Assembly (NCBI GenBank): GCA_028290385.1
Contig: JAQGJZ010000423.1
Coordinates: 1 to 15,735 of the forward strand
From: Enterovirga sp.
GTDB lineage: Bacteria > Pseudomonadota > Alphaproteobacteria > Rhizobiales > Beijerinckiaceae
Length of the DNA stretch: 15,735 nt
Reading direction: 5' to 3'
A program made the position numbers and the translations under genes. Within the stretch, counting starts at the first letter, position 1. The number at the start of each line of letters is the position of its first letter. Below the pieces are notes generated by a model. It was not told where the DNA came from. It made no database searches and saw only the letters and a program-made list of their open reading frames with translations. Of the stretch, positions 7,502 through 14,575 are shown one piece after another.

Positions 7502-8653
7502 GTGAGCGAACGGGCAGACCATCCGGACAGCCTGCGTCCGGCCTTTGCCGGCGCTGCCGCCACCTTTTCCGGGATCGGCCTCGGCCGGTTCGCCTATGTG
7601 CCCCTGTTTCCCGCCATGGTGTCCGCCGGCTGGGTGACGGGCGCGGAGGGTGCGCTGATCGGCGCGTCGAACCTCGCCGGCTATCTCGTCGGCGTTCTGG
7701 GCGGGCCGAGCGTCGCCCGGAGGATCGGCACCGCCGCCGCGCTCGATTGCGGGATGCTGCTCGGCATGGTCGGGTTCGGGGCCTGCGCGTTCGATCTGGG
7801 CGCCGCCTGGTTCCTGCTCTGGCGCTTCGTCTCGGGGGTTGGCGGCGGGCTCCTGATGGCTCTGGCTGGTCCGGCCGTTCAGGGAACCGTTCGGGCCGCC
7901 CGGCGAGGCGTCGCGGGCGGGATCGTGGTGTCCGGGATCGGATTCGGCATCGTCGTGGCCTCAGCCGCGATCCCGGCTCTCGTGCCGCTCGGCCTGTCGG
8001 TAGCCTGGGCTGCACTTGCGGCGATCGTCGGCCTGCTGTGGCTGCTTGCCCGGCCGTCCTGGCCGAGGACCCCGATTCCCCCTACCCCGGCAGCAATTCC
8101 CGCCCGATCCCTCGTGCTGCAGACAGCCTACGGCATCTCGGGCGGGGGGCTCGTGCCGCACATGGTCTACTTCGCCGATCTGGCGGTCCGCGGGTACGGG
8201 TTCGCGCCGAGCTTCGGCTCTCTGTTGTGGCTGATCTTCGGGACCGGCGCCCTCGCCGGGACGCTGCTGGGCGGCCGCCTCGCCGACCGGCTCGGCGCGC
8301 TCACCTCGTTCCGGCTCTGGCTCGCCTTTCAGGTGGTTGCCCTCGCGGCGGCGCTGTCCGGTAACACCGTCCTTCTGCTCCTCTCAGGTTTTGCCGGCGG
8401 GTTCAGCGCGCTCGGCTTGGCGGCCATCGCCCTCGCTAGGGCCCGCGAGCTCGCCGGACCCGCCGCCGGCGCGGTCTGGGTCAAGACGACGGCCGCGTTC
8501 GGCATTGCACAGGCAGTGGCAGGACTGGCGCTCGCCGCGCTGTTTGCCCAAACCGGCTCCCACACGGCGGTATTCCTGACGGGTCTCGCGCTCTCCGTTG
8601 CCGCACTTCTCGTGTCCTTTCTCAACGCGGACCGGGCCGCGGCACCCGCGTGA
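7502..8653 (+). CDS. MFS transporter, YbfB/YjiJ family
   Basis: A 383-residue integral membrane protein with about twelve hydrophobic helices, of the YbfB/YjiJ major facilitator group (Pfam MFS_4). The signature [16 protein letters not shown] lies near residues 24-39, in the first helix. An Arg-rich segment (around RAARRG) lies near 130, and [10 protein letters not shown] is the equivalent of the conserved loop between helices 8 and 9. The substrate is unknown. I chose the GTG at 7502: the frame opens earlier, at ATG 7361 inside the DUF3750 gene, but that would add 47 mostly Arg/Pro/Ser residues that are an out-of-frame reading of the upstream gene. The TGA overlaps a GTG that could start MeaB, so transport and MeaB are probably cotranscribed. 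Confidence 0.88.
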
Positions 8654-8691
8654 GGCTCGACGGCGCCGGGCCGCAGCGGCACAACACCGGG

Positions 8692-9669
8692 ATGCGACCG
8701 CGTCCCTCGCCCGACCTCGACAAGCTGCTTGCCGGCGACCGGGCGGAGCTCGCGCGCGCCATCACGCTCGTCGAATCCTCGCGCGCCGACCATCGCGCCG
8801 CGGCGCGCCAGGTGATCGAGGCCGTGATGCCGAGGACCGGCCGGGCCATCCGGGTCGGCATCACGGGCGTGCCCGGCGTCGGCAAATCAACCCTGATCGA
8901 TGCCCTCGGCTGTCTCTTGGTCGAGGCCGGGCATCGGGTGGCCGTGCTCGCCGTGGACCCGAGCTCGACGCGGACCGGCGGGGCGATCCTGGGCGACAAG
9001 ACCCGCATGGCCCGGCTCGCGACGGATCCGGCCGCCTTTATCCGGCCCTCTCCGTCCTCCGGCACGCTCGGCGGCATCGCCGGCCGCACCCGCGAGGCGA
9101 TGCTGCTGTGCGAGGCTGCTGGCTACGACGTCGTACTCGTGGAAACCGTCGGGGTCGGCCAATCGGAGACGGCGGTGGCGGACCTGACCGACATCTTCGT
9201 GGTCCTCGCCCTGCCCGGGGCGGGCGACGATCTCCAGGGCATCAAGAAGGGCGTCATCGAGCTCGCCGACGTCATCGCGGTGAACAAGGCGGACGGGCCG
9301 GGCGGCGAGCGGGCCGCCGCCGCAGCCGCCGATTACCGCGCGGCGCTGCACATCCTCGTGCCGCCCGGCGCGCTGTGGACCCCGCCCGTGCTCCTGATCT
9401 CCGGCCTGTCCGGCACCGGCCTCGACGGGCTCTGGGCGAAGGTCCTCGAGCATCGCCGCGTTCTGGAGGGGGCCGGAGAGCTCGCGGCGAAGCGCCGCCA
9501 GCAGGACCTGAAATGGATGTGGGCCCTTGTGGAGGACCGCATCCGCCACCGGCTTCGGACCGACCCGGCCATCCGCGACCGGGCGCCGGCCATCGAGGCG
9601 GCCCTGGCCGACCGTTCGCTGTCCCCCGCCGCGGCCGCGGACGAGATTGCCGGGATGCTGGGGCTCTGA
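8692..9669 (+). CDS. meaB: MeaB, methylmalonyl-CoA mutase-associated GTPase
   Basis: A 325-residue cytoplasmic G3E-type GTPase that gates adenosylcobalamin loading into methylmalonyl-CoA mutase and protects it from inactivation. Numbering from ATG 8692: P-loop GVPGVGKS (59-66), [11 protein letters not shown] (switch region, about 87-97), ETVGVGQSE (151-159, switch II) and NKAD (198-201, guanine specificity). The C-terminal [14 protein letters not shown] helix is the dimerisation arm typical of MeaB. It closely resembles Methylobacterium MeaB as I remember it (329 residues). An upstream in-frame GTG at 8650 overlapping the MFS stop would add 14 residues; I prefer the ATG because it matches the usual N-terminus. 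The next start is one base after its stop. Its client mutase is encoded at the left edge of the window. Confidence 0.95.
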
Positions 9670-11405: not shown

Positions 11406-11858
11406 TCAGGCAGGCTCGGGTGCGCGGGCGAGAACCTGAGCGTTCATCCGCTCGAGCCTGCTGGCGAGCTCCCGCATCACGGCGATCGACATCTGCGGGA
11501 ACTGGCTCAGCAGCTCCAGGAAGACCCGCTTGTCGATCCGCAGAGCCGAGGTCGGTTCCGAGGCCAGGATGGTGGCGGAGCGGGGTGAGTCGGACAGGAT
11601 GCCCATCTCGCCCAGCAGGGCGTTGCGGCCGAGTTCGGCGACCTTGACCGGTCCGCTGGGGGTCTCGAGCAGGACCTCGGCGCAGCCTTCCAGGATGACG
11701 TAGGCTGCATCCGCCGCATCGCCCTGGGAGAAGAAGCGCTGGCCCTTGGCGAAGTGGATGCGTTCGGAGGTGAAGGCCAGCAGCTTCAAGCGCGAGGGGT
11801 CGATGTCGCGAAACATCGGGACCTGCCGCAGCGATTGAACTTCCGTGTCGATCGTCAT
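11406..11858 (-). CDS. Cyclic nucleotide-binding domain protein without output domain
   Basis: A 150-residue protein that is essentially one cyclic-nucleotide-binding (CNMP/CRP-type) beta-barrel followed by a terminal helix. GDAADAAYVILEGCAEVLL (46-64) is the core barrel. The phosphate-binding cassette is intact: G83-E84, then R93-S-A-T (GEMGILSDSPRSAT), so cAMP or cGMP binding is plausible. There is no DNA-binding helix-turn-helix; the chain ends about 20 residues after the C-helix. It therefore probably works by binding a partner protein. The ABC-like gene lies 17 bases upstream and the SDR 11 bases downstream, all in one transcript, which makes the ABC-like protein the obvious partner. The ATG is preceded by GGAG and AGGA at slightly long spacing. 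Confidence 0.88.
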   Translation of the reverse strand: MTIDTEVQSLRQVPMFRDIDPSRLKLLAFTSERIHFAKGQRFFSQGDAADAAYVILEGCAEVLLETPSGPVKVAELGRNALLGEMGILSDSPRSATILASEPTSALRIDKRVFLELLSQFPQMSIAVMRELASRLERMNAQVLARAPEPA

Positions 11859-11875: not shown

Positions 11876-14575
11876 CTATTCCGCGGCTGCCTGCGGCAGC
11901 TCTTCCGGCTGACCGGCAGCGCGGGCTGCGGCGACATTAACGTCGGCCGCGCCGCCGCGGAACTGGATCACGGCATCGAAATGCTCGCTGCGCTGGGCAT
12001 TGGAGAGAACCGCCAGGAGCGTGCGCTCGCGGGTTTCCTCGAGAACGATGTCCAGAACGGCACCAATCCGCCCCTCGCCGAACGGCGCGAGAGCGCCATC
12101 GACCACCAGGATGTCGGGTTTCTTGACGAGACAGCGGAGCAGATTGACCCCTGCCCGCTGCGGCGATGTCAGGAGCCGCCCCGCGGGCCCGACCTGGTGG
12201 TCGAGCCCGACCCGCTCGATCCCGCCGCGCAACGCCATCTCGTCGATGATCTCGGCTCCAATCAGGCGCACCCGCTCCCGGGCATCGGCAACGCGCTCGT
12301 TCACCCGGCCGAAGAGCAGGTTGTCACGGTCGGTCGCGGCGGGATTCAGCGTGTCCGGCTCGTAGAAGCGGATGTCATCCCGGCCGTGCCGGCCGAAGAT
12401 CTCCCGAACCTGGACGCGCCCGGCGAGCAGGCGCTCGATCATCCCCTCGTCGAGCAATCCGAGCCGGTGCCGCGGCTCGATATAGGGCAGGGTCAGCGCG
12501 AGCAGCCGCTCGCGATCCTCGACCGTCTCGCCGGCGCGCCCTGACTTTCCGAGCCGTTTCAGGATGGCCTCGAACTCGCCGAGCTCGTCCGCATGCACGA
12601 ACGAGAACTGGTCGAAGAGCGGATGTCCGAGCGGCAGCCCGCGGAAGATGTCGACCATGGTCTCGGCGATCCGAGCGCCCATCCGCACGAGGTCTGCCGA
12701 GAGGTCAGCACGGTCGAGCGCCTGGCGGAAATGCAGATCGCCCACGAGCGCGCGCCCCATCAGGCTTTGGCTCGTCGGCACGCCGAACAGAAGGTTCTCG
12801 GCGACGGTTGCGTGAAGATTGTACCGCTCGGGGTCGAAGAACTCGACCAACTCTGACAGCCCCTCGCCGCTGAGCCGCTCGTGAAAACGGCCCCGCGCTT
12901 CGAGCAGGCGTTCCGCGAGATCGGGGTGGCTCTCGGGGTCGATCGCCCCACCGAGCCCGAACCGGTACAGGTCGTCCACCAGCCCCATGCGCCCGAGCAG
13001 CTGGATGATGCGCTCGTCAAGTTCCTCGCGGGTGCCGAACCCAGCCCGCTGGAGGTCGATCCACTCGACCTCGATCGAGTCGCTCGGGTTGCCCGTTCGG
13101 CCAGCCTCGAAGCGGCGGCGACGATCGAGCTCACCCTTTTCCGCTTCGGTGAGCGGCTGCTGGCGCAAGCCGTAGAGAATATTGTCCCGGATGCTGCCCG
13201 GAAACAGGATCGGCTCCACGCCCGCATAGGCGATCCGGCGTCCGACGACGCTGGCGGGCAGGTCGCTCAGGTCCCGGCCGGAAATTTGCACCTCGCCGGA
13301 AAATTCGATCGGCCGGCGCGCGATGAGCCGGGCGAACATGCTGGCCGCCGCCCCGCTCTCGGCCGTGAGGGCCACGTGGGCAGGCAGATCGAGATGGAGA
13401 CTCGCCCGGCTGATCAGGATCCCGCCATGCGGGTCGTTGATGGACAGATCCTTCACCTCGAGCGCGCCGACGAGCTCGACATCCTCGCCCGTGTGGTCAT
13501 CCGCGTGCTCGGGCAGGAGCTTCTCCGCCGAGAAATAGGCGACCACCTGGTCGTACTTGACCTGCACATCGAGCCGTTGCTGGTCCCAGTCGATGAGCTC
13601 CTTGAGCGGGGGCGGCAGTTCCCGGTAGGCCGCGATCACCGCGACGAGCTGGCCGATATCGAGGCGGCCCTGCAGAGCGAAGTAACCGCCGAATGCGTAA
13701 AAGAAGAAGGGCGTCAGCTGGGCCAGCAGGTTGTTGAGGAATTTGACGATGAACTTCCGCTTGTAGATCCGGAAGCGGATGTCGAACAGCTCGTAGAGCC
13801 GGTGCGCGATCTCGGCCCGCTCCCAGCGGGCCGTGTTGTGCACGTGGACGGCCTCCATGCCGTCGATCACTTCGCTGACTCGTCCGGCGAGCCGGCGGGA
13901 GGCGATCTGGCGCATCCTGCCGAGCCGCAGGAGTTCCCGCCGCATGCGGGGAATAATAATGAACTGCACCCCGACCACTGCCGCGGCCGTGAGGCCGAGC
14001 CATACGCTCTGCATCAGGATGAACAGCAGCGCGGTTGCCGCCTGCGTTCCCAAGAACATGGGCTGAACGAAGGCGTCGCCGATGAACCCGCCGATCGGCT
14101 CGACTTCGTCCTTGATGATCGTTGCCGCCTCCGACGACTTCACGGTACGGAGCGTCTCGGGCGTAAAACGAAGCGCCAAGCTGAACAGCTCGAAGCGCAT
14201 GCGGCGCAACATCCGTTCTCCAAGCGCCCCCTTGGACACGTTGATCCAGTACTTGAAGCCGCCGTTGATCAGCACGAAGAACAAGAACAGGAACGATAGG
14301 CCGAACAGCAGGTGCAGCCGGCCGACGTCGATCCCCTCGAAGAACTGGAACCTGTGCCCGCCAAGCCAAGATGGCAGCGAGAATCCGATGTCGAGAAACT
14401 TTGCCGTCTGGCGCCCCTGTTCGAAGGCGCGGCCTTGGATTGCTTCGTTGACGATCCGCCGTGGCAGATCGAGCGACATGTAATAGAAGGGCAACGACGC
14501 CAGCACCACCGCGAAGATGAGCAGCTGATCGCGCTTCGAATGCCGCCAGATGTAGCGGAAGAGGCTTCTATTCAT
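11876..14575 (-). CDS. ABC-exporter-like protein with degenerate ATPase domain and large insertion
   Basis: An 899-residue inner-membrane protein. Residues 1-350 form an ABC-exporter-type membrane domain; hydrophobic helices lie near 18-34, 86-104, 173-208 (two) and 285-317 (two), with the usual long cytoplasmic helices between. The ATPase-like domain starts near 370, but its key residues are gone: the P-loop reads AESGAAAS (405-412) with no lysine, the Q-loop Gln is V453 (YAGVEP), the signature is LTSPQ (802-806), Walker B ends D826-G827 instead of Asp-Glu, and the H-loop His is probably N859. Between Q-loop and signature are about 350 residues, where ordinary exporters have some 50; the motif seen after the Q-loop recurs twice there. 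Active transport by this chain alone is doubtful. It could pair with an active half-transporter, act as a scaffold or sensor, or be regulated by the CNB protein. First gene of its operon. Confidence 0.85.
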   Translation of the reverse strand: MNRSLFRYIWRHSKRDQLLIFAVVLASLPFYYMSLDLPRRIVNEAIQGRAFEQGRQTAKFLDIGFSLPSWLGGHRFQFFEGIDVGRLHLLFGLSFLFLFFVLINGGFKYWINVSKGALGERMLRRMRFELFSLALRFTPETLRTVKSSEAATIIKDEVEPIGGFIGDAFVQPMFLGTQAATALLFILMQSVWLGLTAAAVVGVQFIIIPRMRRELLRLGRMRQIASRRLAGRVSEVIDGMEAVHVHNTARWERAEIAHRLYELFDIRFRIYKRKFIVKFLNNLLAQLTPFFFYAFGGYFALQGRLDIGQLVAVIAAYRELPPPLKELIDWDQQRLDVQVKYDQVVAYFSAEKLLPEHADDHTGEDVELVGALEVKDLSINDPHGGILISRASLHLDLPAHVALTAESGAAASMFARLIARRPIEFSGEVQISGRDLSDLPASVVGRRIAYAGVEPILFPGSIRDNILYGLRQQPLTEAEKGELDRRRRFEAGRTGNPSDSIEVEWIDLQRAGFGTREELDERIIQLLGRMGLVDDLYRFGLGGAIDPESHPDLAERLLEARGRFHERLSGEGLSELVEFFDPERYNLHATVAENLLFGVPTSQSLMGRALVGDLHFRQALDRADLSADLVRMGARIAETMVDIFRGLPLGHPLFDQFSFVHADELGEFEAILKRLGKSGRAGETVEDRERLLALTLPYIEPRHRLGLLDEGMIERLLAGRVQVREIFGRHGRDDIRFYEPDTLNPAATDRDNLLFGRVNERVADARERVRLIGAEIIDEMALRGGIERVGLDHQVGPAGRLLTSPQRAGVNLLRCLVKKPDILVVDGALAPFGEGRIGAVLDIVLEETRERTLLAVLSNAQRSEHFDAVIQFRGGAADVNVAAARAAGQPEELPQAAAE

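Follow-up and report, generated by a model that had tools for sequence, protein, structure and literature searches.

The fold of ATP-binding cassette (ABC) exporters has been turned into a channel or a regulator in CFTR and in SUR1/SUR2, both of which still bind nucleotide and have at least one competent site. To our knowledge, the well-studied degenerate ABC exporters also keep one working ATP site. In agreement with this, degenerate-site heterodimeric exporters are described as pairing a canonical site with a degenerate one (PMC7756269). HetC of Nostoc PCC 7120 is described as an ABC exporter whose cyclic-nucleotide-binding (cNMP) domain is needed in vivo, is stabilised by GDP and GTP, not by cAMP, and bound ppGpp, and whose ATPase residue is essential (PMC10986499). 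Here we describe ABC-A, a protein of Enterovirga sp. with a predicted ABC-exporter fold and a degenerate nucleotide-binding domain (NBD), encoded in a stretch of 15,735 nucleotides (the window), which is the entire contig JAQGJZ010000423.1 of a metagenome-assembled genome (MAG) that is 77.8% complete. The loss of the catalytic residues is observed directly, and we put at about one half the probability that ABC-A is a maintained pseudo-ATPase exporter, gated by a cNMP subunit and serving a surface-glycan pathway.

An earlier note on this DNA, made from the letters alone, had reported that the main ATPase motifs of the protein are degenerate. The motif register was fixed by aligning ABC-A with six other exporters of this MAG, in which GxxGxGKS, the Q-loop Gln, LSGG[QE], DE and the H-loop His all fall in the expected columns. 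The six were chosen for their canonical motifs and so control the register and not the frequency of such motifs; a seventh candidate locus, L237, had no open reading frame (ORF) passing the filter. The alignment clearly showed that in the P-loop (canonical G-x4-GKS) two glycines are replaced by Ala and the Lys by Ala411, while Ser412 is retained, that Val453 stands for the Q-loop Gln and Gly827 for the catalytic Glu of Walker B, and that the signature reads LTSPQ; the replaced Lys, Gln and catalytic Glu and the signature are as the note had said. The H-loop His is lost as well, but the note's guess that Asn had taken its place was one residue off: the His column holds Ser858, and Asn859 pairs with the Arg of 'HR' in the control exporters. 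The note had also considered that its alignment might be displaced from a canonical P-loop lying elsewhere. A motif scan of the whole protein found no G-x4-GK or L[ST]GG[QEK] elsewhere in the chain, and the lone Lys of segment 360-475 is residue 375. Hence the Walker A Lys, catalytic Glu, Gln, His and LSGGQ by which an active ABC ATPase is recognised are all absent or degenerate in ABC-A. The frame is nevertheless intact, with an ATG start and zero internal stops over 899 codons (only stop-free ORFs were read); it lies on the minus strand, which the note had not given.

Both domains of a type IV ABC exporter were found in this single chain, namely ABC_membrane (PF00664; residues 91-315; 42.6 bits against a cut-off of 28) and ABC_tran (PF00005; residues 391-531; 30.1 bits against a cut-off of 25). 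In agreement with this, the AlphaFold2 model (mean predicted local distance difference test score, pLDDT, 83.5; predicted template modelling score, pTM, 0.79) shows an exporter transmembrane domain (TMD) and an NBD. The modelled NBD superposes on ComA 3vx4_A over 225 residues at 2.8 A, and the full-chain model on PaMsbA 9bd6_A over 388 residues at 4.0 A, so that the comparison with exporters proposed in the note came out in favour of the fold; SUR structures were among the structural matches too. Beyond an insert of about 315 residues, at about residues 790-875, comes the remaining half of the NBD, which contains the signature and Walker B. The closest named relative in the searches was a protein of Enterovirga aerilata, 81% identical.

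To see what has been kept, we compared 120 aligned close sequences, that is, the window protein and P0003-P0121 (at least 59% identity; P0002, identical to the query, was dropped). Lys411, Glu827, Gln453 and His858 are present in none of them, and Gly827 and Asp826 are invariant across all. The ratio of nonsynonymous to synonymous substitution rates (dN/dS) was computed by the Nei-Gojobori method with Jukes-Cantor correction in our own implementation, for pairs with 700 or more aligned codons, at least 80% amino acid identity and dS below 2. Its median was 0.125 (range 0.048-0.334) over 210 locus pairs, which are non-independent. By domain, the TMD was the most constrained (median 0.081) and the N-terminal NBD part (NBD-N) the least (0.203), with 0.14 for the insert and 0.145 for the C-terminal NBD part (NBD-C). 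The comparison of the window gene with that of E. aerilata gave 0.15 overall, with 0.058 for the TMD, 0.315 for NBD-N and 0.285 for NBD-C, and in a 60-sequence alignment 91 of the 350 TMD columns were invariant vs. 4 of 125 in NBD-N. The old ATP-site region is thus under purifying selection, though weaker than the TMD. Since the losses are common to all 120 close sequences and dN/dS lies at 0.05-0.33, the motif loss does not represent decay. The note's check on conserved substitutions and low dN/dS therefore favours its view of a maintained pseudo-ATPase and not a decayed gene, as far as sequence can tell.

The insert with its flanks repeats a unit made of the Q-loop and the helical subdomain, and each repeat bears a recognisable hallmark (Table 1). 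Comparison of the units gave probabilities of 94.7 for U2-U3 and 61 for U1-U3, against maxima of 0.42 and 0.14 in shuffled controls (20 each). U1 and U2 showed no significant similarity (probability 0.65; control maximum 0.22), so the threefold repeat rests on the other two comparisons.

Table 1. Features of the window discussed in the text (coordinates in nucleotides of the 15,735-nucleotide stretch).
Feature	Position	Strand	Remark
ABC-A, 899-aa protein of predicted ABC-exporter fold, degenerate NBD	11876..14575	minus	
ABC-A transmembrane domain, residues 1-350	13526..14575	minus	Pfam part, residues 91-315, = 13631-14305
Degenerate P-loop, residues 405-412 (AESGAAAS)	13340..13363	minus	Lys column = Ala411
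Q-loop column, Gln replaced by Val453	13217..13219	minus	
Repeat hallmark 1, RDNILYG, residues 463-469	13169..13189	minus	
Insert of about 315 residues in the helical subdomain, residues 476-790	12206..13150	minus	
Repeat hallmark 2, AENLLFG, residues 592-598	12782..12802	minus	
Repeat hallmark 3, RDNLLFG, residues 750-756	12308..12328	minus	
Degenerate signature LTSPQ (for LSGGQ), residues 802-806	12158..12172	minus	
Walker B ILVVDG, residues 822-827	12095..12112	minus	Asp826 retained, catalytic Glu replaced by Gly827
H-loop column, His replaced by Ser858	12002..12004	minus	
150-aa cNMP protein (PF00027), next gene downstream of ABC-A	11406..11858	minus	Candidate regulatory subunit
cNMP phosphate-binding cassette, residues 83-96 (GEMGILSDSPRSAT)	11571..11612	minus	Conserved in relatives
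Divergent gene, truncated by contig end	14655..15734	plus	79 bp between annotated starts of it and ABC-A

The gene next to ABC-A proved to be a steady companion. A cNMP gene lies at most 700 bp downstream on the same strand in 83 of 106 loci, and this linkage persists to loci where ABC-A is only about 38% identical (L037); the locus-linkage counts are unthinned for relatedness, include many Microvirga and leave out L112. Furthermore, 16 of 184 proteins carry the cNMP domain fused in frame at the C-terminus of ABC-A (hmmsearch E 8e-57 to 2e-7). The fused cases sit in two separate clades of the tree, and two of them are cut by the stretch end. Thus, a cNMP domain joined or linked to an exporter, as in HetC, is found in the window and well beyond it. 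The cassette of the neighbour is well conserved: among 141 distinct cNMP sequences from the fetched loci, Gly83 is present in 141, Glu84 in 132, Arg93 in 137, Ser/Thr94 in 133 and Ala95 in 132. The neighbour has therefore kept its predicted ligand site, whereas the transporter has lost its ATP site. One relative, P0228, is a single chain of 1173 aa with the order ABC_membrane, ABC_tran, cNMP_binding, GGDEF, which in that one lineage connects the family with cyclic-di-GMP signalling. At 21 loci of Methylobacterium/Phreatobacter (within L086-L116: L086, L089, L090, L092, L094, L096-L098, L100-L105, L107-L111, L115 and L116), ABC-A is degenerate in a pattern of its own and the fetched stretch holds no cNMP gene.

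The divergent gene on the other side of ABC-A gave no Pfam hit in its window copy. Its relative at locus L164 contains PF04101 (glycosyltransferase family 28 C-terminal), and the L164 operon encodes a second PF04101 protein, two PF00534 glycosyltransferases and a protein that resembles a polysaccharide deacetylase on reading its sequence, though Pfam gives no hit. A relative of the divergent glycosyltransferase lies at most 900 bp upstream of ABC-A in 78 of 105 loci, and similar ORFs occur in 42-55 of 83 loci. A similar setting surrounds the orthologue on pSymB of Sinorhizobium meliloti R14, Q1M65_09435 (903 aa; the P-loop Lys is Gly by eye), which is followed by a cNMP gene annotated as Crp/Fnr and then by an FkbM methyltransferase gene, and which has two genes upstream, one for a glycosyltransferase at about 2 kb and one with an adenylate/guanylate cyclase domain at about 12 kb. 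Farther off in the window, positions 24-2132 and 8650-9669 hold what we take to be a methylmalonyl-CoA mutase and a MeaB-type GTPase chaperone.

The family is widespread. In a phylum sample of 348 genomes (the make-up of the unlisted ones is not shown), matches at E<=1e-60 were confined to the window's own class, with 31 genomes; the class sample held 289 genomes. ABC-A has so far been seen in Alphaproteobacteria, a restriction to the class being unproved by these samples; one homologue, P0231, is labelled Thermoleophilia, perhaps through a binning error, as its contig equals in length that of L102 (Phreatobacter). Ordinary exporters are among the 4129 matches of the homology search, and the family counts leave these matches out. 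Among 72,556 plasmid records (PLSDB), 290 matched at E<=1e-30 and 262 of these cover more than 80% of the query; they belong mostly to Rhizobium (144) and Sinorhizobium (80). The S. meliloti orthologue (entries L250, L251 and L252) is intact in one piece in R14 (L251, CP130053.1:459940-462651) and on pSymB of strain 2011, and the record of strain 1021 matches as two pieces in different frames, perhaps owing to a real frameshift or a sequence error. There are also relatives of the membrane domain that have no NBD (L218-L229), with open frames of 323-425 aa and, in L229, an in-frame TAG. Both of those scanned contain PF00664, and no NBD gene was found within 5 kb in any of the 12 stretches. Three of them (L218-L220) come after two genes that presumably encode proteins like copper-resistance CopA/CopB.

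Taken together, these results suggest that ABC-A is a half-transporter that may work without ATP hydrolysis, its NBD having kept the fold but not the residues for binding and hydrolysing ATP. The TMDs would then form a gate, a carrier or a docking platform for a glycan or glycolipid supplied by the neighbouring glycosyltransferases, and the NBD would provide the platform for a dedicated cNMP-binding subunit that sets the state of the membrane part. We favour a membrane gate or platform set by the cNMP subunit, and not by ATP, because the TMD is the most constrained domain, the chemistry of the NBD is lost, the cNMP domain has kept its ligand site and is sometimes fused, and membrane-only relatives exist. 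The predicted fold, the motif loss and its conservation, the purifying selection, the gene linkage, the fusions and the conserved cassette are results of the analysis, and we infer the lack of ATP hydrolysis, the control by a cyclic nucleotide and the glycan substrate. More specifically, and quite speculatively, both halves may be ATP-dead in the window lineage and the NBD a repeat-enlarged dock, such that the cNMP subunit (sometimes fused, once together with GGDEF) would open or close the membrane part as a signal-gated glycan or glycolipid gate.

Several observations speak against the view of ABC-A as a cNMP-gated pseudo-ATPase. The main one comes from the wider family, for which a motif table of 149 sequences, including the window protein, was compiled after dropping L002-L008 (ordinary exporters) and L112 (partial), and for which 108 representatives were obtained by thinning at 72% identity; from the other ABC-A sets, repeats of one gene, L112 and the low-coverage ABC-B loci L195-L197 were dropped. 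Distant members do keep ATP-site residues: Lys411 is present in 39 of the 108, Ser/Thr412 in 18, Gln453 in 12, Asp826 in 48, Glu827 in 33 and His858 in 18. Lys, Glu and His occur together in 11 representatives, and Lys, Asp and Glu in three. L027 and L121 combine Lys, Asp, Glu and His but have neither Ser/Thr412 nor Gln453 nor the signature glycines. Because distant members such as these two retain ATP-site residues, some members could still be ATPases. The note had named homologues with an intact P-loop and Walker B as evidence that would count against it; among close homologues none was found, and L027 and L121, which are distant, answer to that description in part. In addition, AlphaFold2 confidence is low at residues 158-173 and 321-339, both of them conserved stretches of the membrane part; the cNMP gene is not adjacent in 23 of the 106 loci (the 21 listed above, L027 and L030); the glycosyltransferase is missing beside ABC-A in 27 of 105; and ABC-B, a paralogue described below, keeps an acidic residue near Walker B, 65 of 106 sequences having Glu at column 826 in place of Asp. 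Finally, the HetC domain bound ppGpp and not cAMP (PMC10986499); the ligand of the ABC-A neighbour may differ from a cyclic nucleotide.

The full catalytic set (K, S/T, Q, D, E, H) is nevertheless found in none of the 108 representatives, and the homologues that keep single motifs are less than 48% identical to the window protein. A tree of the representatives and 14 ABC-B sequences (FastTree without bootstrap, motif columns removed) requires a minimum of 14 changes at Lys411, 16 at Glu827, 9 at Gln453 and 13 at His858. The tree does not separate gains from losses; as the wider superfamily is canonical, losses are the plausible reading. Read from these columns, the motif losses are a family trait that deepens toward the window lineage. 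In Lys-keeping distant homologues such as L117, L119, L122 and L114, the P-loop Lys is mostly followed by Glu or Asp, and Asn-Glu often stands for Asp-Glu, as if metal ligands had been swapped.

The earlier note had supposed that ABC-A may need an active partner. In 149 genomes of the window's taxonomic family (E<=1e-60), ABC-A was found in 53 and a second full-length gene, ABC-B, in 31 (more than 950 bits to its own profile). ABC-B has the insert too and forms its own clade in the tree. In 106 sequences (P0122-P0227, some partial), neither Lys411 nor Glu827 was present in any, so that, judged by these residues, the partner that one would first expect to be active is itself degenerate; from a separate ABC-B set, L196 and L197 were dropped as repeats. 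ABC-B, the only conserved paralogue found, was also not found in 28 of the 53 ABC-A genomes, and the supposition thus gains no support from ABC-B. As a special case of the pseudo-ATPase explanation, ABC-A and ABC-B could form a heterodimer with no canonical composite site. We regard this as possible but doubtful: the two proteins have the insert in common and occur together in 25 of the 149 genomes, including all three others of the same genus in that sample. On the other hand, ABC-A occurs by itself in 28 genomes and ABC-B by itself in 6, the incomplete MAG of the window yielded no ABC-B, and in the genomes whose gene positions were listed the two are on separate contigs or distant from each other. 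A further link comes from the metallo-beta-lactamase (MBL)-fold hydrolase gene that is downstream of ABC-B in 10 of the 13 loci read and that, in L210, directly follows ABC-A and its cNMP gene, thereby connecting the two units. A WecA-like glycosyltransferase accompanies ABC-B in 8 of the 13, and the one MBL gene and one WecA-like gene scanned gave PF12706 and PF00953. In L198-L205 and L217, the MBL-fold gene stands immediately after ABC-B; the scanned MBL protein matched a cyclic-nucleotide-degrading phosphodiesterase model weakly (36 bits, cut-off 400) and RNase Z better. Of 12 stretches from genomes without ABC-B, the 9 whose ABC-A motifs were read (L242 was not among them) all lack Lys411, and so do L248 and L249 (the same genes as L186 and L182).

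It is likewise conceivable, though we hold it no more than tentatively, that ABC-A moves nothing and acts as a receptor or scaffold in the membrane, keeping the cNMP protein and the glycosyltransferases there. The dead NBD, the cNMP linkage and fusions, the GGDEF fusion in one relative and the glycosyltransferase neighbours would all suit such a role. The strongest constraint, however, falls on the TMD (0.081 vs. 0.14-0.20, with its 91 invariant columns), which fits a pathway no less well than an anchor.

An unlikely alternative is an NBD that can still bind nucleotide, or hydrolyse it slowly, through unorthodox residues, perhaps by a rebuilt metal site in the members that keep Lys. Among those 39 representatives, 16 have Glu and 12 have Asp at position 412, and 23 have Asn at position 826; besides the residues kept by L027 and L121, the window protein itself retains Asp826 and Ser412. 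This is hard to reconcile with the disappearance of Lys, Glu, Gln and His from all 120 close sequences and with NBD-N being the part under the weakest constraint. We consider still less probable a pairing of ABC-A with an ordinary ATPase-competent exporter encoded elsewhere, like that of TM287/288 or TAP. Degenerate-site heterodimers are well known (PMC7756269), and the genome encodes at least six ordinary exporters, but the site of such a partner would need the ABC-A signature, whose glycines are gone, and the sole insert-bearing paralogue found is degenerate. Decay into a pseudogene, which the joint loss of several catalytic motifs might suggest, is refuted by the intact 899-codon frame, the purifying dN/dS with no relaxed selection, the identical losses in 120 of 120 sequences and the conserved neighbours.

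No paper title or abstract start on the ABC-A family was found in the literature searched, whose scope did not extend to subscription papers and preprints. As a probable pseudo-ATPase exporter, ABC-A belongs to a widespread family that has altered its ATP site many times while keeping its membrane part, with an intact member on pSymB of S. meliloti 2011, a laboratory strain. The family makes it possible to ask what role an exporter can have without its engine, and whether another ligand takes over its control.

Compared with the known systems, ABC-A is like the type IV exporters MsbA, PglK, BmrA and TM287/288 in its predicted fold, its single TMD-NBD chain and both Pfam domains, and unlike them in having no canonical ATP site, an insert of about 315 residues built of repeats and a dedicated cNMP neighbour. 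With the degenerate-site heterodimers (TM287/288, TmrAB, TAP and MsRv1273c/72c) it shares an NBD without the catalytic Glu and other motifs; unlike in those, both known halves of the family, ABC-A and ABC-B, are degenerate. HetC also combines the exporter fold with a cNMP domain and may serve as a precedent for the control of an ABC exporter by such a domain. HetC has a C39 peptidase domain, which was not found in the Pfam scan of ABC-A, and needs its ATPase residue, whereas in the ABC-A family the cNMP domain is encoded by a gene of its own or fused to the C-terminus, and the exporter that it accompanies has a degenerate ATPase site.

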